A stretch of DNA of 40,988 nt from positions 87,801 to 128,788 of the forward strand of contig JAHEYN010000008.1 of assembly GCA_023251555.1 (NCBI GenBank), given 5' to 3'. This document shows, piece by piece, positions 10,810-22,504 of the stretch (positions are counted from its first letter, which is position 1; every line of letters starts with the position of its first letter). A model generated the notes under the pieces. That model was not told where the DNA came from. It did no database searches and saw nothing but the letters and a program-made list of their open reading frames with translations. This DNA is from Bacteroidota bacterium. Lineage in GTDB: Bacteria > Bacteroidota > Bacteroidia > AKYH767-A > JAHEYN01. Made by a program: the position numbers and the translations under genes.

Positions 10810-11658
10810 TTAAAATTCCCAGACATCATGTTCAAGAGTAACAATATCGTCTTTTATTCTCTGGGCTTCAAGCAAAGCATCCAGCGGGTTTGTTTTATAA
10901 CTCGCGATTGTTCTGTCGTAAACGTTTGACTGCTTAACTATATAGCTGCTGAACATACGCTTAAAGAAAATATCGTCAAATGTCCTTCTTTCCGCATCAT
11001 TGAACCTGTTAAAGACTTCAGCATTGACAAATATCTTCCTCGCCTCCGGAAAATAAACCCAGTAAAGCGCATCCGGCCCGACAAACTCGCCCGTTTCCTC
11101 ACTGAACTTCTTGATAACGGGAGCAATGCCTATAATCCGAACGTCCATAACAGATCTCTGTTTGTCAAAGAACCAGTCCTCTTTTAACTTAAATTGGTAC
11201 ACGTTATCTCTTTTCAGAGCCTCAGTAACAACTTTCTTAGACCACTCAAGAGTAGTAGGATCCTGCACGTCCAGGGTATCGGTTCTCGCACCAATAGCTG
11301 CTACCTCTGCCTGGGTGAGCGGAAATGTAAACTCATCGTCACCCGCATGCTGTTCACTCTTGTATGCTGTTAATGTTCCTTCCAAGGCGGCATCATGAAT
11401 AACGTCCATAAGATTGCGCCTGTCCTTAATCGTTTTACTCGCAGGGAATTTAAATGGAAGATTAAGTTTTTCGTTCAGGTCAATAACTCTCCATATTCTG
11501 GAACTCCACATTACGTCTGCTTCACGGAGATGGCAGTATGGAATGACTTTCCTTGTCGGAACATGCTCCTTTACATATACTCCATCCAACACATTCTGTG
11601 CAAGTGCCAGTGAAGCACCTGAACAAAATACCAGGGCAATTACTAACTGTTTCTTCAT
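10810..11658 (-). CDS. gldN: GldN/PorN, periplasmic T9SS ring protein
   Basis: A 282-residue secreted protein with a signal peptide (cleavage after A-L-A, residues 18-20). The mature N-terminus, with V-L-D-G-V-Y-V-K-E-H-V-P-T-R-K-V-I-P-Y, and the following D-V-M-W-S-S-R-I-W-R-V-I-D-L-N-E-K-L-N motif are typical of GldN/PorN. In the type IX secretion system PorN and the lipoprotein PorK form large rings beneath the outer membrane, linked to the PorL/PorM motor. It is the last gene of gldKLMN, 19 bases after gldM. Its start has an unusually strong Shine-Dalgarno sequence for this phylum. A terminator lies just downstream. Confidence 0.95.
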   Translation of the reverse strand: MKKQLVIALVFCSGASLALAQNVLDGVYVKEHVPTRKVIPYCHLREADVMWSSRIWRVIDLNEKLNLPFKFPASKTIKDRRNLMDVIHDAALEGTLTAYKSEQHAGDDEFTFPLTQAEVAAIGARTDTLDVQDPTTLEWSKKVVTEALKRDNVYQFKLKEDWFFDKQRSVMDVRIIGIAPVIKKFSEETGEFVGPDALYWVYFPEARKIFVNAEVFNRFNDAERRTFDDIFFKRMFSSYIVKQSNVYDRTIASYKTNPLDALLEAQRIKDDIVTLEHDVWEF

Positions 11659-11677: not shown

Positions 11678-13294
11678 TTAGTTTATAACGAAACTTACCG
11701 GGCTCAATGTTCTTGTGTCTCCCCCGGGACCAATTGCTTTTATGTTCTCAAAATAAACCTTATCAGCAAGCCTTAATTTTCCAAACATCCCAAGCATTTC
11801 AGAAGAAAAACTATTACTCCTTGAGCTGCTGAACATTGGTTCCCGCCCTTTGCCGGCAATGGTCATGTCAAAGGAAATAACTTTGAAATTTACTCCTTCA
11901 AATTCAAAATTTTCCATCTCGGCAACGATCCCAACCTGGGCACTTAAAATAGCTTTCCCGATCGGTCCGCCTTTCTTGGTCGCAATCTTAGCAACAGGGT
12001 TGGGAAGTTTCTTGACACGGAATTTAAACTGTCCCATATTTTGTTTCTTCCCCGGCTCAGTTTCTGCGGAAACACTGATCGTTGCATCCCCTTCCGTCAT
12101 TACATTGGCAGTATATTTACCACGGCTGCCGCTAAGTGAACCTGATGAAATAGAAGGAAATATTTTTTCTGCTGCAAACCCGGAAACAGAAACAGAAATA
12201 GGATTGGGAATCCCTATATAAAGCACGTTCATTTTCTCAGGAGAAACTACTGCACTTGGCTTTGCAGAAAGATATTCGGCTTTAAAAGGATATGATTTTA
12301 CTGTTCCATCAGGACTTTTAACATTAATCAGACCTCCCCATTTCTGAGGGCCTTCCGTTGTTGGTTTTACGATATATTTACCGACACCCCGTTCGACAGT
12401 AATTGAATCTGCTTTGCCTATCATTTCATGTTTAACAGAATCCACCTGCCCTATCAGTATCTGGGGATTCTGTGTAGTGCTGAATGCCGCAACAAAAACA
12501 TCTGCCTCATACTCCTGCCCTATAACCACATAGCTGCTCTTGGGAATCACCTTTGCAGCAAGTGTATCAAACTTAAAGTCACGTGCACTTATTTGCGAAT
12601 ACAGGAAGTTGATAGCATCAGCTTCGGCATTCCTGACATCACTCTGAAGTTTTGAAAGATTCGTAATAACCGGTGCCAATGGGAAATGGCCAAAGAAATG
12701 GGTTTCCCAGGTATATTTGATTCCTTCCTTATCCAGTGCAGGATCCTTGGTCTCAAGGCCAAGATTGATCTTAGCCGGGATATGCGTTTTCTGCTCTACT
12801 TCTTTTAAAATAGCTCCTATTTTTGATTTATATTCATTAATCTTGTTCTTAAGTTCCCGGGCTTTCCCGCTGGAACCATCAGAACTGCTGCCAATCATTA
12901 TCTCAGCAGGTATGTTGTTTTCATCTTTTGATTCAACATACTCAAGTGTAATGGTATCCTGTTTCTGCTTGGAAAGATTATCCGCCCTGCCCATAATTTC
13001 CTTTTTCAAATCTTCGATGTATTTCTCCATTTCATCAGAGAGCCTCTTTATGGTCAGCGCTTTTACCCTGTAATCTCTCACTTTTCCGGGATTTTGCTTC
13101 TCCTGGAACTCAAAATCCGAATAGGTTTGCTTATTCTTCTTGTTAAGATTTTCAGTAGTAACTTCCAGGCCTTCATTAATAAGAACAAACGCAAGAACTA
13201 TCTCTTTTGAAATATTCAAAGCCAGCAGCGCAGTAAGCACGAGGTACATCATACCGATCATCTTCTGCCGTGGTGATAAATTATTACCTGCCAT
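11678..13294 (-). CDS. gldM: GldM/PorM, T9SS motor shaft protein
   Basis: A 538-residue inner-membrane protein: short cytoplasmic N-terminus (M-A-G-N-N-L-S-P-R-Q-K), one transmembrane helix (about 13-36), a helical region (about 40-215), then beta domains to the C-terminus. GldM is the stator/shaft subunit that spans the periplasm as a dimer and, with GldL, forms the proton-driven motor of T9SS and gliding. R9 lies at the position of the conserved arginine reported to pair with the membrane glutamate of GldL in Flavobacterium. The length is close to known GldM proteins (about 510-520). It lies 51 bases after gldL and 19 before gldN. Confidence 0.96.
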   Translation of the reverse strand: MAGNNLSPRQKMIGMMYLVLTALLALNISKEIVLAFVLINEGLEVTTENLNKKNKQTYSDFEFQEKQNPGKVRDYRVKALTIKRLSDEMEKYIEDLKKEIMGRADNLSKQKQDTITLEYVESKDENNIPAEIMIGSSSDGSSGKARELKNKINEYKSKIGAILKEVEQKTHIPAKINLGLETKDPALDKEGIKYTWETHFFGHFPLAPVITNLSKLQSDVRNAEADAINFLYSQISARDFKFDTLAAKVIPKSSYVVIGQEYEADVFVAAFSTTQNPQILIGQVDSVKHEMIGKADSITVERGVGKYIVKPTTEGPQKWGGLINVKSPDGTVKSYPFKAEYLSAKPSAVVSPEKMNVLYIGIPNPISVSVSGFAAEKIFPSISSGSLSGSRGKYTANVMTEGDATISVSAETEPGKKQNMGQFKFRVKKLPNPVAKIATKKGGPIGKAILSAQVGIVAEMENFEFEGVNFKVISFDMTIAGKGREPMFSSSRSNSFSSEMLGMFGKLRLADKVYFENIKAIGPGGDTRTLSPVSFVIN

Positions 13295-13345: not shown

Positions 13346-14167
13346 TCAACGGTTCATGTTCATTGCAGAAAGCATATTGCCATAAATAGTATTTAAGGCA
13401 GCCAGGTTTTTCGCAAGCGAAGAGATCTGGTCTTTATACTTCTTGGTGTCTTCCATAGAAGCGTTAAGGTTCCCCATCATTTCATTAATACCTTCATACA
13501 ATTTAGCAGTGGATTTCAACTGCGTATTGGCATCCTGCAGCTGCAACTCATAAACAGCATTTAATGCAGACAGGTTTTTAGAAGCAGAAGTCATCTGGTC
13601 ATTATAATTCTGGGCAGACGATTTCATCTGCTCATTGGAACTCTTAATATCTTCACTCAAAGAAGAAAGGTCACTCATAGAGCGGGATGCTTTCTGGTAT
13701 GAATGAGAGAGTTCGCTCACGGATTCAGTTGCGCTTTTAACGCTGCTTACATACTCATTAGTGGCAACGGATGCATTTGATAAATCAGCGAGTTTAGAGG
13801 TGGTTTCCCCCAGGCTCTTTAAGCCTTTTCCAACACTATCCAAAAGTTCGGGACCAATTTTTGCCTCTTCAAGCATTTTATCTAACTCCTCCACAGGGGT
13901 GCCCCTTTTCTCCCCTTCTTCTCCGGGAAGTCCTGCCAGCTCAGGATATACAAGAGACCAATCCACCTCTTCGTGAATAGGTTCAAACGCTGAGAAGAAG
14001 AATATGACAGCTTCCGTTCCCAACCCTACCGTGAGCATGACACCAGCCCCGGGCCAGTGTTGAATTTTAAACAAAGCACCAACAATTACAACTGAAGCTC
14101 CCCAGCCATAAAGTTTGGCCATAAATTTTTTCCATTGCTTACTGGATGTCAATTCTTCTAAATTCAT
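13346..14167 (-). CDS. gldL: GldL/PorL, T9SS motor membrane protein
   Basis: A 273-residue protein with two transmembrane helices near the N-terminus (about 19-35 and 42-62) joined by a short loop containing K-I-Q-H-W-P-G-A-G, which is diagnostic for GldL/PorL. E52 in the second helix matches the conserved membrane glutamate implicated in proton coupling. The rest (about 85-273) is cytoplasmic, S/A/N/K-rich and predicted to be a coiled coil, with two near-repeats of S-L-A/S-K-N-L-A/S-A-L-N-x-V/I-Y. GldL forms a ring around the GldM dimer and powers secretion. Gaps to gldK (63 bases) and gldM (51) are short, consistent with an operon. Confidence 0.96.
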   Translation of the reverse strand: MNLEELTSSKQWKKFMAKLYGWGASVVIVGALFKIQHWPGAGVMLTVGLGTEAVIFFFSAFEPIHEEVDWSLVYPELAGLPGEEGEKRGTPVEELDKMLEEAKIGPELLDSVGKGLKSLGETTSKLADLSNASVATNEYVSSVKSATESVSELSHSYQKASRSMSDLSSLSEDIKSSNEQMKSSAQNYNDQMTSASKNLSALNAVYELQLQDANTQLKSTAKLYEGINEMMGNLNASMEDTKKYKDQISSLAKNLAALNTIYGNMLSAMNMNR

Positions 14168-14230: not shown

Positions 14231-15499
14231 TCAATAGTCTGCTTTGTCCCTTCCAAGGAAACTCATTACACAACGGAATCCAATGTAACATTTAGCAGTA
14301 TCCTGGTACTCGTATGCACGGGTTCCTGTTTGTAAATAATGAGCGATGTCCTTCCAGGATCCGCCACGGATAGTCTTTCTTTTAAGGGAAGGCGGATCAT
14401 TCTCTTTGGCGTCATAAACATAGTCCGGGTTCAGGTCATGGGTAAAATTATATGCTGCCTCATCGTAGGCATTGGAAGTCCATTCGGCAACATTCCCCGC
14501 CATGCAATACAATCCATAGTCATTGGGCCAGTATGAAGTAGCTTTAACTGTATAGAAACCTCCATCATCCATATAGTTACCTCTGAGAGGTTTAAAGTTC
14601 CCGAGAAAACAGCCCCGGCTGTTACGAATATACGGACCTCCCCACGGGAAAGGGGAAAGCTGCTGACCACCCCTGGCTGCATACTCCCACTCGGATTCAT
14701 ACGGCAGGCGAAAGTCCTGAACATACGTTTCTCCTCCATCAGCAAGATATTCGTTCATGAGTTCCGATCTCCATACGCAAAATGCTCTGGCCTGCCTCCA
14801 CGTAATACCCACAACAGGATAATCATCATATGCAGGATGCCAGAAGTACATATTGGTCATGGGATCGTTGAAAGAATATGTAAAATCATGTATCCATGCG
14901 AGAGTATCGGGATAAGTATTAATGGTATCACTCTTAATAAATACAGACCTGTCTTTCATTCCCTGCTCCCTGTTGGATTTTTTTGCAGCTTCTTTAAGAT
15001 CAATCCAGTAGTACAGGAAATTCATTTTCCTGGAATCAATTTCTTTTCTCTTATAATACCGCTCTGTTTCAGGAATAAATAACTCAGCGAGGGTTTCCAC
15101 GTTAGCCTCATCATCCCATTTTATTTTGGTACTCCAGTTAATCCTCTCATCGTATTCCCCCTCACTTTCAAGGTGATCGCCACCCAACAGCCTGTGGGCA
15201 AGAGAGTCCCGCACCCAGTAAACAAACTGACGGTATTCATTATTTGTAATCTCAGTATCATCCATATAAAAAGCATGTATGGATACGGATTTACCCTGTG
15301 CAACAACAGCATAAGGTGCATCCTGGTCGCTTGGGCCCTGTACCATATAGCCGGAAGGAATGTAAACCATCCCATAAGGATCTGCCTGGAACCATTTCTC
15401 CCTGCCCTGAACACCAACAAGCTGTCCTTTATTGCCACCCCCGCAGCCACCAAGAGCAAGGAGCATCAACAGAAAGGAATAACCCAATAGCTTTTTCAT
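14231..15499 (-). CDS. gldK: GldK/PorK, T9SS outer-membrane lipoprotein
   Basis: From the start chosen here the protein has 422 residues and begins M-K-K with a lipoprotein signal peptide; the lipobox is L-G-G-C with C19 as the lipidated residue. The open frame extends upstream to 15604, but that start would put 35 extra residues before the signal, and a Shine-Dalgarno site precedes 15499. The body is a formylglycine-generating-enzyme (FGE/SUMF1) fold, with C-terminal motifs A-G-N-V-A-E-W, I-R-G-G-S-W and I-G-F-R-C-V. In GldK/PorK this fold is structural: with GldN it makes the periplasmic ring. It is 148 bases after the porP-like gene. Confidence 0.95.
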   Translation of the reverse strand: MKKLLGYSFLLMLLALGGCGGGNKGQLVGVQGREKWFQADPYGMVYIPSGYMVQGPSDQDAPYAVVAQGKSVSIHAFYMDDTEITNNEYRQFVYWVRDSLAHRLLGGDHLESEGEYDERINWSTKIKWDDEANVETLAELFIPETERYYKRKEIDSRKMNFLYYWIDLKEAAKKSNREQGMKDRSVFIKSDTINTYPDTLAWIHDFTYSFNDPMTNMYFWHPAYDDYPVVGITWRQARAFCVWRSELMNEYLADGGETYVQDFRLPYESEWEYAARGGQQLSPFPWGGPYIRNSRGCFLGNFKPLRGNYMDDGGFYTVKATSYWPNDYGLYCMAGNVAEWTSNAYDEAAYNFTHDLNPDYVYDAKENDPPSLKRKTIRGGSWKDIAHYLQTGTRAYEYQDTAKCYIGFRCVMSFLGRDKADY

Positions 15500-15502
15500 A
15501 TT

Positions 15503-15509
15503 ACCTCCC
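15503..15509 (-). promoter_or_regulatory. strong Shine-Dalgarno sequence of gldK
   Basis: The minus strand reads GGGAGGT, with GGAGG ending four bases before the ATG at 15499. It complements the standard 16S anti-Shine-Dalgarno tail and decides the gldK start over the upstream ATG at 15604. Confidence 0.8.
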
Positions 15510-15547
15510 TTATTATTGATATTTGATTTACAATAAAACTTTAAACC

Positions 15548-15570
15548 AAAAAAACAGATCCCTTTATCTG
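15548..15570 (-). terminator. weak hairpin with U tract between porP-like gene and gldK
   Basis: On the minus strand CAGAT (15570-15566 complement) and ATCTG (15559-15555 complement) form a five-base stem with a six-base loop, followed by a run of seven T. It is a weak intrinsic terminator or attenuator that could reduce read-through from the porP-like gene into gldK. The stem is short, so this may be chance. Confidence 0.28.
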
Positions 15571-15647
15571 CAATTCCCATTCCCAACTGTTTATTAAATA
15601 ACATAAACGTACCCTGGTTTATTATTGTTACAAGAATTAATAAATGA

Positions 15648-16559
15648 TTACAGGAACCGCACGTTCATATTTCGCGGAAGTGGTTTGGCTGAAGTTGTCT
15701 TAAAGCAGTAGCCGAGCATGATTTCGTGTGTTCCGCTGCTGTATCCTCTTATTGCAGAGGTTGTAATGTCGTATGAGTAACCGAACTTGAAATTACCGGA
15801 ATTAGCTCCTACCATAGCAACAATAGCATCAGTGAATCGATATGAAAGGCCACCCCAGAACCTGTTATCATATAAAAGATTGCAATTTATATCAAAAATG
15901 GTAGCCGAAGCGTCGGATTTTATCCATGCGGAAGGCATTATTGCGAGAGAAGACGTGATATCTTTTTTATACCCGCCGATAATATAATAATGCCTTGCCA
16001 TTTTATAATTTATAGAACCGTATTTCAGATCACCTTCTGCAAGATGAGAGGCAGACAATCCAAAATATAAATCCGTTGTATTATAATAGGCTCCGAAAGT
16101 AAAATCAGGAGCAGTAGCGCTTACCGCAGCAGGTATAGATTTATCATTTGCAACGGGGTCAGTTGCCACCCAATTACCATTGATTGACTTTTGTAATATA
16201 CCTGCATCTATTCCGAGACCAAGCTTACCGGGGCCGAGGTCTGTACGGTAAGCATAGGCAATTCTTGCACCCAGGGATTTTTCGAATCCAAGCTGATCGT
16301 ATCCTATGGTAACACCAAAACCACCATGAGCAGCAATAACCGGCCCTTCCACCGAAATCAAGCCGGTTTTGGGAGCACCCTCAAAGCCAACCCATTGATT
16401 TCTGCCCAGCAGGGTGATGCAAGTAGCATCGTTAGACCCGGCATAAGCAGGATTAACAGAAAGGCGGTTGTACATGTTCTGACTGAACTGGGCATCCTGC
16501 TGTGCATGGAGGGCACAACCAAAACCCAGAAGTACAGACAATAAGTAATAATTTTTCAT
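15648..16559 (-). CDS. porP: PorP/SprF-family T9SS outer-membrane protein
   Basis: A 303-residue protein from the start chosen here (M-K-N-Y-Y), which gives a clean signal peptide with cleavage after H-A near residue 19; an upstream in-frame ATG at 16613 would add 18 residues ahead of the signal. The mature start Q-D-A-Q-F-S-Q-N-M-Y-N-R-L-S-V-N-P-A-Y-A-G-S is the hallmark of the PorP/SprF family, and the rest is a run of amphipathic beta strands as in a 14-strand barrel. These proteins sit in the outer membrane with the T9SS. SprF-type members help secrete or attach cargo with type B C-terminal domains. The order porP-porK-porL-porM-porN matches Porphyromonas gingivalis. Confidence 0.93.
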   Translation of the reverse strand: MKNYYLLSVLLGFGCALHAQQDAQFSQNMYNRLSVNPAYAGSNDATCITLLGRNQWVGFEGAPKTGLISVEGPVIAAHGGFGVTIGYDQLGFEKSLGARIAYAYRTDLGPGKLGLGIDAGILQKSINGNWVATDPVANDKSIPAAVSATAPDFTFGAYYNTTDLYFGLSASHLAEGDLKYGSINYKMARHYYIIGGYKKDITSSLAIMPSAWIKSDASATIFDINCNLLYDNRFWGGLSYRFTDAIVAMVGANSGNFKFGYSYDITTSAIRGYSSGTHEIMLGYCFKTTSAKPLPRNMNVRFL

Positions 16560-16683
16560 TTTTATCTTCTTCCTAAATAATATAGTTTGCAAGACGAAGC
16601 GTAAAATAAACAAGAATTTTCCTCATATACAAATTTTGTCTTTTTAGCTTTATATTCAAGTTTTTGAGAGCGTCCGAATACTT

Positions 16684-17859
16684 TCAACTCAGCTTCTGAA
16701 ACGCCTGCCACCACCTCTCGGGCATTTCTTCTTTACAGGCCAGCATGTAATCATTATATGAGCATGGGATAATATGATTCCTCTGCATTTTAACCTTGCT
16801 GTCAGGATAGGGCACCTCCATCCACCATCTTTCGGTCTTTTTGCTTTTATAAAAAATAATCTCATGCCCTGTATCTTTTATAAACACCCTGTATTTAACA
16901 AAGCCTTTTTTACTGCCAACAGGGGAGTCTTTCCTGCGGCTATACACACCATCAATGAAATACCATATCATCTGAGCTGCAAGATGAGCTGTCCGGCCAT
17001 TTTGATCAAGAGAAGGATTGGTTTCATAAATGCCGAAAGAAGAAACTTTATCGCTTATCCCTGCATAACGGGCAATCTGGCACGCTTCCTCACCGTAAAA
17101 CCCGTTGGGGGAAGCATTATTATTGCCGGGCGCATCCGAGGCCCTGACTGCAGAGATATCAAACGTAATCATATCAGCACTTCTTACAATTGGTTCTACT
17201 TCTGCAATATCCTGCCTCACCTGGCCAAGCCTGTAAGCATCAAAATACAATTTCTCCATCAGTGCAATGGATCCCTGCCCGACAAAATATGTCTGGTACC
17301 CGATATTACTGAAGTTAAAAAGATAGTTCGGCTGGTGAAGGATAATCTTCCCGACAAAATTCCGGGAGCAGATATTTTCAGAGGCCTCTCCGAGGTCAAA
17401 TGAAGAGTCAACACTTACTATATTTACTATATTCCCGGAATTTTTATAAGAGAGGTATTGGGCGAAGGAGAGATCCTGGCTGCCGCCGATAATAACAGGT
17501 ATTACCTGCCTGTCTATCAATTCACCGCATACTTCGGACAAAGCAGTATATGTATCTTTCAGACTATGACCCGGCATGATGTTGCCAATATCTGCAACTT
17601 TATATTTGTGATCGAGGCACGACAAACGGTATAATTTATTCCGTATAAAATCTGCCGCCTCTCCTGTTCCCTTGTTCAGAACGGCACCTCTTTCTTCAGG
17701 CACTCCTATAATGGCAACAGACTTATCCTCAAGGGAGGGGAGTTTGCCTTCCTCCCTGTATGTGTCAAGAACTTTTCCAAACACATCTCCTTTAGCGCCA
17801 AAATCATAATCAACTATTGAGCTGTTAACAGGTCGAAGAAAAATACTTATATCTGACAT
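16684..17859 (-). CDS. arginase-fold protein with degraded metal site (often labelled formimidoylglutamase)
   Basis: A 391-residue protein of the ureohydrolase (arginase/agmatinase/formimidoylglutamase) fold, recognisable from I-G-V-P-E-E-R-G-A near 52, V-I-I-G-G near 122-126, and the strand motifs below. The catalytic di-manganese site is not conserved. The G-G-D/G-H motif is G-G-S-Q-D (125-129), so the histidine is Q128. The D-A-H-x-D motif is D151-S-S-F-D155, losing the histidine. The S-x-D-x-D motif is T-F-D234-I-S236, losing the second aspartate. Three of six ligands are gone. I recall close relatives in other Bacteroidota next to topA and gldK with the same G-G-S-Q-D-L motif, so this looks like a conserved non-canonical family, not decay. 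It lies 38 bases after topA. A hydrolase label should be treated as doubtful. Confidence 0.85.
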   Translation of the reverse strand: MSDISIFLRPVNSSIVDYDFGAKGDVFGKVLDTYREEGKLPSLEDKSVAIIGVPEERGAVLNKGTGEAADFIRNKLYRLSCLDHKYKVADIGNIMPGHSLKDTYTALSEVCGELIDRQVIPVIIGGSQDLSFAQYLSYKNSGNIVNIVSVDSSFDLGEASENICSRNFVGKIILHQPNYLFNFSNIGYQTYFVGQGSIALMEKLYFDAYRLGQVRQDIAEVEPIVRSADMITFDISAVRASDAPGNNNASPNGFYGEEACQIARYAGISDKVSSFGIYETNPSLDQNGRTAHLAAQMIWYFIDGVYSRRKDSPVGSKKGFVKYRVFIKDTGHEIIFYKSKKTERWWMEVPYPDSKVKMQRNHIIPCSYNDYMLACKEEMPERWWQAFQKLS

Positions 17860-17897: not shown

Positions 17898-20399
17898 TTA
17901 TTTTTTAGGGAATCGCCGCTTAGTTGTTTTTGTATTTTTTGCCAATTCAAGACATTCCTCAATTGTAAGCGACTCCGGGGTTTTTCCCTGAGGAATCTTC
18001 ACATTTTTCTTTCCCACAACGATATAAGGCCCCCACCTACCCTTAAGTATTTTCACATCGGTGTTAGTCTCAAAAGTTTTTATTACATTTTCCTGGGCTG
18101 CTTTTGCTTTATCTTCAATTATTTTAATTGCATCCGGTAACTCAATAGTAAAGGGGTCATGGTCATTTTTAATAGAATAAAACGAACCTTTATGTTTAAC
18201 ATAAGGTCCGAACCGCCCCATCCCGATAATCACATCATCTTCTCCGAGCTTACCAATAGTTCTCGGAAGTTTAGGGGTTTTAATTACCTCAATTGCCCTT
18301 TCAAGAGATAAGGAATAAGGGTCATCGTCTTTCTTAAGCGAGTAAAATAAATTTTTATGCTTCACATAAGGTCCAAAGCGTCCTATGGCAATAACCACAT
18401 CCTCGTCTTCATAGCTTCCTGCAACCCGTGGAAGGCGGAACAGGTCAAGGGCTTGTTCCAGCGTAATCGTATCTATCCTTTGATCTTTTCTGAGACTTGC
18501 AAAGCGGGGTTTTTCTTTCTCTTCTGTGGCACCCATCTGTACAACCGGCCCATACCTTGCGATCTTCACATAAACCGGCAGCCCGGAAGCGGGATCATTA
18601 CCGAGCAATCTTTCACCTGTTGCGCGCTCTGAGGTTTTGCTGGTTGTTTCCACATTCTTATGAAAAGGGCCGTAAAACAATTTTATCATTTCGGTCCATA
18701 CTTTTTGCCCTGCGGCAATTTCATCAAATTCCTCCTCTACTTTTGCGGTAAAATTATAATCAAGTATATTCTGAAAATTATGTACCAGAAAGTCATTGAC
18801 CACGCAACCAACATCCGTAGGAAATAATTTCGCCTTCTCCACTCCTGTGATTTCAGACAATTCCTTATGGAGGATTTCTTCATCCTTGAGAGTTGCAGTA
18901 TGATATATCCGTTCTTTTCCCGGGCGGTTCTCTTTTACCACATACCCGCGTTTCTGAATAGTAGAGATTGTAGGAGCATAAGTGGAGGGGCGTCCAATAC
19001 CAAGGGCTTCAAGTTTTTTTACCAAACTTGCTTCTGTATACCTGGGAGGGGCTTGTGAAAACTTTTCTGTGGCGGAGATTTCAGAGAGATTCAGCTTCTG
19101 GTCCCGGGAGAAAGCAGGGAGAAGCCTTTCCTTAATTTCATTTTGTTCCGAATCTTCGTCATCAGAAGATTCCATATACACCTTAAGATATCCGTCAAAA
19201 AGAATCACCTCTCCCGATGCTATGAGTTCGTCGGGCGTTTTTGTATTGGCAATATTTACTATTGTTTTCTCGATATCAGCATCTGCCATCTGGGAGGCAA
19301 TGGTTCGCTTCCATATCAGATCATACAAGCGGTTTTCATTATCATCGGCGGAATCAGCGGATCTTTTATCGAGATATGCCGGCCTGATTGCCTCGTGTGC
19401 TTCCTGGGCACCGGCAGTTTTTGTTTTATACTGCCTTGTATGCACATAACGGCTGCCAAAGGTTGATGTAATCTCTTCAGTAGCAGCGCTAACGGCTGTT
19501 TCAGACAGGTTAACGGAATCTGTCCGCATATATGTAATTTTCCCGGACTCATAGAGCCTTTGGGCCAGTAACATCGTTTTAGAAACGGAAAATCCAAGTT
19601 TCCTGCTGGCCTCCTGCTGAAGCGTTGAGGTAGTAAAAGGGGCTGAAGGAGAACGTCTGCTTGGCTTTTTTTCGATGGCCTTTACAAAAAACTCGGCCCC
19701 TTTCAGTTTTTCAAGCAATGTCTGGGCGTCTTCTTTGTTACTGAGACGCTGGGGCAGTTCTGCTTTAAATGTAACCGGGACTCCCGATTCGGTAGTAGCA
19801 TTAAAATAAGCTACTACTTTATAATTAGACACTGAATTAAAAGCATCTATTTCTCTTTCTCTTTCAACAATCAGCCGGACCGCAACAGACTGTACCCGGC
19901 CGGCGGAAAGCGGGGATTTCATACTTATTTTTCTCCATAATATGGGAGAGATTTCAAACCCCACAAGCCGGTCGAGTACTCTCCTGGCCTGTTGTGCATT
20001 TACAAGATTATAGTTAATGCTGCGCGGATTAGCAACAGCTTCGGTAATTGCCTTTTTAGTAATCTCATGGAAAACGATTCTTTTGGTTTTCTTTTCGTTA
20101 AGTTTCAGTGCTTCGGAAAGGTGCCATGAGATCGCTTCTCCCTCTCGGTCTTCATCAGTTGCAAGCCATACTGTATCCGATTGTTTGGCAATTTTTTTGA
20201 GCTCGTCCACAATCTTTTTTTTCTCTGCCGGTATTTCATAGACCGGGGCAAAGTTGTTTTCTACATCCACTGACAGGTCTCCATGAGCAAGATCACGGAT
20301 ATGGCCAAAGCAGGATTTAACCGTATAATCAGCACCAAGAAAACCCTCAATTGTTTTCCCTTTTGCCGGGGACTCCACTATCACCAGATTTTTTACCAT
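17898..20399 (-). CDS. topA: DNA topoisomerase I (type IA)
   Basis: An 833-residue type IA topoisomerase, which relaxes negative supercoils by single-strand passage. The Toprim domain opens the protein (L-V-I-V-E-S-P-A-K-G-K-T at 5-16), with acidic metal ligands D82, D84 and E86 in T-D-E-D-R-E-G-E. The catalytic tyrosine is Y290 in G-K-I-T-Y-M-R-T-D-S. Instead of C-terminal zinc fingers there are three or so repeats of the F-G-P-Y-V-K-H-K type (from about residue 670 on), the C-terminal repeat domain common in Bacteroidota and other TopA proteins, ending in a basic tail (T-K-R-R-F-P-K-K). It lies between gldD (103 bases) and the arginase-like gene (38 bases). Confidence 0.98.
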   Translation of the reverse strand: MVKNLVIVESPAKGKTIEGFLGADYTVKSCFGHIRDLAHGDLSVDVENNFAPVYEIPAEKKKIVDELKKIAKQSDTVWLATDEDREGEAISWHLSEALKLNEKKTKRIVFHEITKKAITEAVANPRSINYNLVNAQQARRVLDRLVGFEISPILWRKISMKSPLSAGRVQSVAVRLIVEREREIDAFNSVSNYKVVAYFNATTESGVPVTFKAELPQRLSNKEDAQTLLEKLKGAEFFVKAIEKKPSRRSPSAPFTTSTLQQEASRKLGFSVSKTMLLAQRLYESGKITYMRTDSVNLSETAVSAATEEITSTFGSRYVHTRQYKTKTAGAQEAHEAIRPAYLDKRSADSADDNENRLYDLIWKRTIASQMADADIEKTIVNIANTKTPDELIASGEVILFDGYLKVYMESSDDEDSEQNEIKERLLPAFSRDQKLNLSEISATEKFSQAPPRYTEASLVKKLEALGIGRPSTYAPTISTIQKRGYVVKENRPGKERIYHTATLKDEEILHKELSEITGVEKAKLFPTDVGCVVNDFLVHNFQNILDYNFTAKVEEEFDEIAAGQKVWTEMIKLFYGPFHKNVETTSKTSERATGERLLGNDPASGLPVYVKIARYGPVVQMGATEEKEKPRFASLRKDQRIDTITLEQALDLFRLPRVAGSYEDEDVVIAIGRFGPYVKHKNLFYSLKKDDDPYSLSLERAIEVIKTPKLPRTIGKLGEDDVIIGMGRFGPYVKHKGSFYSIKNDHDPFTIELPDAIKIIEDKAKAAQENVIKTFETNTDVKILKGRWGPYIVVGKKNVKIPQGKTPESLTIEECLELAKNTKTTKRRFPKK

Positions 20400-20502: not shown

Positions 20503-21153
20503 CTAATACTTCCACCGGAAGGTATCAATAAAACGGTCTATATCCTTATTAATAAATTCAGCCACGGGAGCAATAGAATCAGCATTAGGAGTCACATTAA
20601 AGTACAGGGAACCCCGGATAAAATTATGAAGTGTATCTGTGAGGTAAAATTGTACTGAAGAGGCAGTATTCCCCTTTATGTCATACATCAGTCCGAATAT
20701 ACCATTCCGCGTTACAAAAGGACGTTCATTTATTTCTTCAGCCTTTATAGTATGTTTCATTGCAAGCGTTCTTGAGTCTTCGGTCAGGCTCCGGAGTTTA
20801 TTATTTGCGAGAGACTTATAACTAAGGTGCAGGGTAGCTTTAAACGAAGGGAACTCAATGTTTATCCAGCATGGTTCGGCACCCGGATCAGGATCATTAA
20901 CAGGGATCGCATAGTCAGGATACTGAAAGACAAAAGGGCAACCTGTATTGTAATCGGAATACTTTTTAGCAGGAAAATCTATGCGGAAAAAACCTCTGGG
21001 CTTAGGCGTATATTCATTTGTACAGGCGCAAAAGAAAGAAAGGAAAATAAAAAACAGCAAATTATTCCGAAAATGAGTAATTCCCCGTTCAGGTAGAAAC
21101 CATTTGCTTTGTACCCGGGAAAAGGAGGGAACAAAAAAATTTAAATTATCCAC
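20503..21153 (-). CDS. gldD: GldD gliding motility lipoprotein
   Basis: The motif T-N-E-Y-T-P-K-P-R-G-F-F-R-I-D-F-P directly after a hydrophobic stretch with F-C-A-C is the hallmark of GldD, a lipoprotein needed for gliding and T9SS function in Flavobacterium johnsoniae. The lipidated cysteine would be the second of C-A-C. The start is uncertain because no ATG lies in frame between the gldE stop and the signal. I give the GTG at 21153, just after the gldE stop, but this leaves about 25 residues ahead of the signal. An ATT at 21081 would give an ideal 19-residue lipoprotein signal. An in-frame ATG at 21222 overlaps gldE by 68 bases. Mature length (about 170 residues) fits the family. Confidence 0.88.
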   Translation of the reverse strand: MDNLNFFVPSFSRVQSKWFLPERGITHFRNNLLFFIFLSFFCACTNEYTPKPRGFFRIDFPAKKYSDYNTGCPFVFQYPDYAIPVNDPDPGAEPCWINIEFPSFKATLHLSYKSLANNKLRSLTEDSRTLAMKHTIKAEEINERPFVTRNGIFGLMYDIKGNTASSVQFYLTDTLHNFIRGSLYFNVTPNADSIAPVAEFINKDIDRFIDTFRWKY

Positions 21154-21154
21154 C

Positions 21155-22504
21155 CTATTTAAGAATTGTGTCGGCAATTGTAACTTTAATTCTGTTAATC
21201 TTTTTTTTATCTGCTGATTCAACTATAAAGCAATATTTATCAAAATACACCTTTTCATTTTTCTCAGGAATTTTCCCGGCAATTTCCAGCACCATTCCAG
21301 CAAGGGTATCAGCTTCTCCATGAACCGAATCAAATATTTTCCTGTCTATCTCAAGTATGCGGCAAAAGTCGTTCAGCAGCGTTTTACCTTCAAAAACATA
21401 TGTTCTGTCATCAAGCTTTGAATACAATAATTCATCATCATCGAACTCATCGTGAATTTCACCTACAATTTCCTCAAGCACATCTTCAAGGGTAACGATG
21501 CCGGAAGAGCCACCATACTCATCCACCACAATTGCCATATGGCTTTTCATTTGCTGAAATTCCTTCAGGAGATCATTGATTTTTTTGCTTTCAGGTACAA
21601 AGTATGGCTGCCTCAGCAATGACTGCCAGTTAAAATCATCTCCCTTATCAATGTGAGCCAGGACATCTTTTACATGGAGGATACCCAGCACCCTGTCAAA
21701 ATTATTCTCATATACAGGCATGCGCGAATATCCTGATTCCATTATCCTGTTAAGCACTTCCTTAAAGGTCATGCGGCTTTCCATGGCAACCACATCGCTT
21801 CTTGACTTCATAATCTGCCGGACATCTGTATTAGAGAACCTTACTATTCCTTTAAGAATTTTCTTTTCTTCTTCAGGAGTGTTTTTATCCGAAGTAAGAT
21901 CAATGGCGTGCGACAACTCATCAACTGAAACATTATAAGTATGCTTTTTAAGCCTTTTATCAATTACATTAGAGGACATTATCAGGAATGTACTCAGGGG
22001 CGAAAAAAGCTTATTAAAAAAAAGTATAGGGAAAGCCATAACAGAAGCCAGTTTCAGAGGATTTTTCGAAGCATACACTTTAGGTATTACTTCTCCAAGA
22101 AGAACAATCACAAAAGTGATGGCAATAACCTGGATAAATACACCAAGAACCGGGGAAGATGAGAAATCAAAAACCTGGTATGAAAGGATTGAAGTAATAA
22201 TCACAATTGCAATGTTTACAAAATTATTAGCTATCAGCAGTGTTGCGAGGAGCAGTTTGGGATTTGCCAGCAAACTGACAATTGCAGTGGTAGTATTACT
22301 CCCTGATTTTCTCAAATCATTCAATTGTTTTGGGGAGAGGGAGAAAAAGGCCACTTCCGATCCTGAGAATAAGGCGGACAAAAATAAAAGAACTGCGATA
22401 CTTATCACTCCAAGCAACACATTCAGGGAAAGAGGCTGAGCAAAAATATCAGCAACCAATTTCGGGAATAGAGAGCAATTCAGATATAGAAGGGTGGGTA
22501 CCAA
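21155..22504 (-). CDS. gldE: GldE, CNNM/CorC-family CBS-domain membrane protein
   Basis: A 449-residue protein with an N-terminal DUF21/CNNM transmembrane domain (helices at about 27-50, 75-105 and 112-140, with [10 protein letters not shown]), a CBS pair (about 215-340, with S-R-M-P-V-Y and the closing [16 protein letters not shown] motif), and a C-terminal CorC/HlyC domain (about 355-440). It is thus a relative of magnesium/cobalt exporters. In Flavobacterium gldE sits next to gldD and can suppress loss of its partner when overproduced, so the two act together. The start is TTG at 22504; no ATG is available before the first helix. It is 2 bases from the putative gldD GTG and downstream of a strong terminator. 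Confidence 0.93.

Follow-up and report, generated by a model that had tools for sequence, protein, structure and literature searches.

The T9SS and gliding motility are studied through the known gld, spr and por genes, nearly all of which encode envelope proteins. The gene described here, which we call ARG, shares with PorP/SprF, PorE, GldKLMN and other core or accessory components of T9SS its locus and its distribution among genomes, but it encodes a protein with a cytoplasmic, enzyme-like fold and is absent from the descriptions of the components in the literature searched. Its best sequence and structure matches are with formimidoylglutamase (HutG, TIGR01227; PDB 3m1r, 4mxr/2a0m), which has the same fold. 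Dead ureohydrolase folds are already known. The Trypanosoma brucei arginase-like protein (Hai et al. 2015), as cited in PMC10820115, has lost the binuclear manganese cluster; as far as that citation goes, it resembles ARG in its arginase fold and in the loss of the cluster, and differs from it in being eukaryotic and of unrelated lineage and context. The beta subunit of metformin hydrolase (MefH-beta/MfmB; 8ryi, 8x3g) is a subunit that has the ureohydrolase fold but no catalytic metal centre (PMC11399263), and metformin hydrolase chains were among the best Foldseek matches of ARG. MefH-beta partners an active ureohydrolase subunit, whereas no gene for an active partner lies alongside ARG. The literature searched yielded no dead ureohydrolase tied to T9SS, nor any paper linking an arginase or formimidoylglutamase gene with gldK, T9SS or Flavobacterium.

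In the window, the whole 40,988-nucleotide stretch of DNA that was analysed, ARG is part of a series of genes in the same-strand order gldE, gldD, topA, ARG, porP, gldK, gldL, gldM, gldN:

21155..22504, minus strand: gldE (profile matches)
20503..21222, minus strand: gldD, lipoprotein, upstream of topA (profile matches)
17898..20399, minus strand: topA, directly upstream of ARG with a 38-nt gap (profile matches)
16684..17859, minus strand: ARG, predicted arginase-fold pseudo-ureohydrolase of 391 amino acids (ORF translation, Pfam, AlphaFold model, Foldseek)
16560..16683, minus strand: intergenic region between ARG and porP, 124 nt up to the likely ATG of porP, containing AAATTTG at 16630-16636; putative porP-gldKLMN promoter (motif enrichment)
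15648..16613, minus strand: outer membrane protein of the porP/sprF family, ORF from TTG, likely start ATG at 16559 (profile matches)
14231..15604, minus strand: gldK/porK (586 bits)
13346..14167, minus strand: gldL/porL, motor protein (profile match)
11678..13294, minus strand: gldM/porM, motor protein (profile match)
10810..11658, minus strand: gldN/porN, ring subunit (profile match)

Profile matches of the neighbours confirmed the position between topA and porP-gldKLMN that had been given in the first-pass annotation. ARG is coupled more tightly to topA than to porP. The spacing between topA and ARG is -4 to +15 nt in about half of the relatives, so that the two genes overlap or nearly touch, and the gap between ARG and porP is usually 110-165 nt, a length that recurs. 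Two motifs were enriched in these gaps, AAATTTG (19/60 vs 2.1 expected) and TTTAGC (24/60 vs 2.1 expected); the standard Bacteroidota promoter TAnnTTTG showed no clear enrichment there. Judged by spacing and motifs, ARG is probably transcribed together with topA, and porP-gldKLMN probably has a promoter of its own in the ARG-porP gap. Simple membership of ARG in a porP-gldKLMN operon is weakened by the coupling to topA and by the promoter-like gap.

The ORF starts with ATG, and the N terminus of the protein has nothing resembling a signal peptide. Residues 47-301 match Pfam Arginase (PF00491, E=5.5e-23) with 82.2 bits, above the gathering score of 22, which places ARG in the ureohydrolase superfamily. 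The AlphaFold model has high confidence along its entire length (mean pLDDT 95.2), and the top PDB match of the model in Foldseek is the T. cruzi formiminoglutamase 4mxr (E=3e-18, TM 0.83 by target length). The claim that the ureohydrolase fold is kept was thus borne out, and so was the doubt cast earlier on the label formimidoylglutamase: ARG scores 102.8 bits with the NCBIfam HutG model, below the equivalog cut-off of 229.15, and the label does not apply. ARG differs from formimidoylglutamase also in lacking the H, H and D of the binuclear site, in having a C-terminal extension of about 85 amino acids, and in its context, which is T9SS and not histidine use.

Translation gave the metal-site residues that the first-pass annotation had listed, with three of the six ligands of a catalytic binuclear site (H, DxHxD, DxD). 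D151, D155 and D234 are retained, whereas two His and one Asp are replaced by Q128, S153 and S236. These motifs and two further conserved regions are located as follows:

17476..17478, minus strand: Q128, replacing the first metal-ligand His; Q in 72, H in 13 and N in 7 of 110 family members (alignment)
17395..17409, minus strand: D151-S-S153-F-D155, replacing the canonical DAHxD (alignment)
17182..17196, minus strand: E222-P-x-x-R226, of which E222 and R226 do not vary among 93 members of the family (alignment)
17152..17160, minus strand: D234-I-S236, replacing the canonical DxD (alignment)
16687..16947, minus strand: family-specific C-terminal extension, residues 305-391, with invariant F336, W345 and C366 (alignment, Pfam)

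The family alignment consisted of 110 extracted Bacteroidia homologues, and ligands were counted in 109 of them, one poor fragment being left out. Homologues with full metal ligands, which the first-pass annotation had named as evidence against its own reading, did not appear: all six Mn ligands were present in 0/109 members. The substitutions Q/S/S, for which it had raised the question of fixation, proved not to be fixed. Position 153, in the middle of the former metal site, is Arg or Lys in about half of the members and one of the least conserved positions (rank 324 of 391), and position 236 is mainly Ser, with Gly, Thr, Asn and Ala also found. What holds family-wide is that position 153 is almost never His (1/109), position 236 almost never Asp (2/109), and position 128 more often Gln than His.

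As a control we used 22 related ureohydrolases, two from the genome of the window itself and the others from the same class and phylum. With few exceptions they keep GGGH, DAHxD and DxD. They end near residue 310, with 0-13 residues beyond that position vs about 82 in the ARG family, and the family forms one side of a branch with 100/100 support that separates it from all 22. Comparison of the sequences gives good support to catalytic loss in the ARG family.

The invariant residues of the family (G92, E222, R226, G253, G267, W299, F336, W345 and C366) sit outside the metal motifs. F336, W345 and C366, which are among the most conserved, are all in the C-terminal extension, to which a Pfam search assigned no family. 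In close ARG pairs dN/dS was about 0.02-0.13, indicating strong purifying selection. Taken together, the low rank of position 153, the location of the invariant residues, including those of the extension, and the low dN/dS suggest that selection has moved from the pocket to other surfaces of the protein, and on this ground we infer that ARG acts by binding rather than by catalysis.

Among enzymatic explanations, an ordinary formimidoylglutamase, agmatinase or arginase would agree with the best Pfam, NCBIfam and PDB relatives, all of which are ureohydrolases. We consider it highly improbable and rejected it because the metal ligands are lost family-wide, the HutG score is far under the cut-off and ARG forms a clade apart that has an extension of its own. 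More can be said for a new enzyme whose altered, probably mononuclear metal site would be made up of D151, D155, D234 and Q/H128. All three Asp are retained in 80/109 members (60 of these with Q128, 12 with H128), D151 and D234 each stand near rank 50 for conservation, and the T. cruzi formiminoglutamase, which has Asn at the position of Q128, was deposited with Mn bound. Nevertheless, the pocket drifts at positions 153 and 236, E279 is only moderately conserved, 12 members have at most one canonical ligand left, and the invariant residues belong to none of the metal motifs; we regard such an enzyme as unlikely. The first-pass annotation had offered a regulator, an assembly factor or a new enzyme as possible roles. 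The drifting pocket and the conserved extension favour a non-catalytic binding role, and they do not separate a regulator from a new enzyme.

Homologues of ARG, which make up an orthologous family spanning the class, were found in 114/119 sampled Bacteroidia genomes, most with one full-length copy, at 30-60% identity. With the low dN/dS, this distribution argues that ARG is not a chance ORF. In 65/113 Bacteroidia genomes the gene precedes gldK by no more than 3 kb and shares its strand (topA-ARG-porP-gldKLMN), and in most of the remaining genomes ARG and gldK are on separate contigs. In a sample of 148 Bacteroidales genomes, 136 GldL-positive and 12 GldL-negative, ARG was present in 101/136 of the former vs 0/12 of the latter (p=3.6e-7, with relatedness and MAG incompleteness only partly corrected for). 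Two of the 12 GldL-negative genomes still encode many T9SS cargo proteins, and in these the lack of GldL is probably a gap in the assembly. When only the clear T9SS-negative Bacteroidales were counted, ARG was found in 0/10 (p=5e-6) or, by family, in 0/7 (p=1e-4). In the phylum sample outside Bacteroidia no genome had an extension-bearing member of the ARG family, and none had GldL above the cut-off. In the samples searched, the extension-bearing family is confined to genomes with T9SS. These counts uphold the proposal that a conserved family of ureohydrolase fold, its metal site degraded, is associated with T9SS genes well beyond this genome, and we regard the association, seen both in the neighbourhood and in the absence of ARG where T9SS is absent, as moderately to well supported. 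ARG is not present wherever T9SS is: it is absent from 35/136 GldL-positive Bacteroidales and from genomes G017 and G099. Since about a quarter of the T9SS-positive Bacteroidales are without it, ARG is an accessory and not a core component.

The unlinked copies of ARG had no constant alternative neighbour, and many adjoin housekeeping genes. A minority have T9SS genes nearby. One copy (L218) is located beside murF-gldJ-porP-porU, and at three loci (L110 and L111 of genomes G041 and G078, and L221 of G426) a T9SS type B sorting-domain protein of about 1000-1240 amino acids is encoded directly 3' of ARG on the same strand. Because of these type B and T9SS genes, type A and type B sorting domains were counted in the same 148 Bacteroidales, the type A counts, for which scoring had an upper cap, serving as a first-look proxy; the idea of a link with type B cargo, absent from the predictions of the first-pass annotation, arose from the neighbourhoods and was afterwards put to the test with the genome counts. 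No more than one type B protein was found in 21/35 T9SS-positive genomes without ARG vs 4/101 with ARG (p=7e-12, kinship being only partly corrected for). The association was seen with one genome per family (p=7e-8) and within the middle range of type A counts, as given by the first-look proxy (p=8e-10). The logistic coefficient for ARG presence was 1.18 for type B vs 0.14 for type A, the latter again from proxy counts. The association of ARG with the type B CTD repertoire is strong, with 18 exceptions and with lifestyle as a confounder. It is an association only, as 14 of the 35 T9SS-positive genomes without ARG hold several type B proteins, and a type B role of ARG is tentative. Porphyromonas gingivalis is reported to have a single type B protein, PG1035, bound to PorP (PMC9143113, PMC12618676). 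Exactly one type B CTD protein was likewise found in 21 T9SS-positive Bacteroidales without ARG, which suggests a single conserved type B partner of PorP in those genomes.

A housekeeping or metabolic sensor linked to topA, whose connection with T9SS stems from neighbourhood, ancestry and lifestyle (free-living vs host-associated), would fit the tight coupling to topA, the separate promoter-like region before porP, the ordinary neighbours of several unlinked copies and the concentration of ARG absence in lineages with few type B proteins. This explanation appears doubtful, since ARG is retained in T9SS genomes even where it is unlinked from both topA and gldK, and is found in no T9SS-negative genome of seven families, all of which would be expected to keep topA. 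We prefer to regard ARG as a pseudo-ureohydrolase that serves as a cytoplasmic accessory of T9SS, a scaffold or regulator, perhaps of the PorP/type B branch, and assign to this reading a probability of roughly one half.

According to this preferred reading, a formimidoylglutamase-like ureohydrolase ancestor would have given rise to the ARG pseudoenzyme, which keeps the fold, lacks the binuclear metal site throughout the family and has an added, conserved C-terminal extension. ARG would be a cytoplasmic protein that serves the T9SS/gliding machine by binding, whether as scaffold, assembly factor or regulator, with a contact surface that may consist of the extension and the helices carrying E222, R226, C260 and W299. 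Its partner could be GldL or GldM, on the cytoplasmic side, or could belong to the regulation of T9SS genes. More speculatively, ARG may be of most importance to genomes that use the PorP/SprF-type B cargo branch, because it was lost mainly where only one type B protein remains. The narrower proposal, that ARG is a previously undescribed cytoplasmic T9SS/gliding factor made of a dead ureohydrolase and a new C-terminal domain and needed for the PorP/SprF-type B branch, is one we advance only tentatively.

A single-copy, cytoplasmic protein present in most T9SS-bearing Bacteroidia could be a component or regulator of the machine that has been overlooked, and one likely to be misread as a metabolic enzyme. 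ARG also illustrates clearly how an enzyme fold is reused once its metal site is gone, catalytic-type relatives still exist to compare it with, and its link with type B cargo yields a testable prediction.

Two proteins of the gliding machinery were considered as better correlates and rejected: GldD simply follows T9SS in general, and GldH was found even without T9SS. GldH (TIGR03511) occurred in several GldL-less Bacteroidales, including Bacteroides ihuae, and is therefore not a T9SS marker. The commonest neighbour of the unlinked ARG copies was a divergent gene for an NAD-dependent sugar epimerase/SDR directly upstream (cluster c1, of which one was identified; loci L041, L043, L055, L072-L075, L080, L084, L085, L087, L100, L102, L103 and L108). 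In one genome (G054, contig C1, 921214-922245) the ARG homologue seems to be interrupted, with three matched stretches and two internal TAG codons; the ARG copy of G013, a genome of the same family, is intact.
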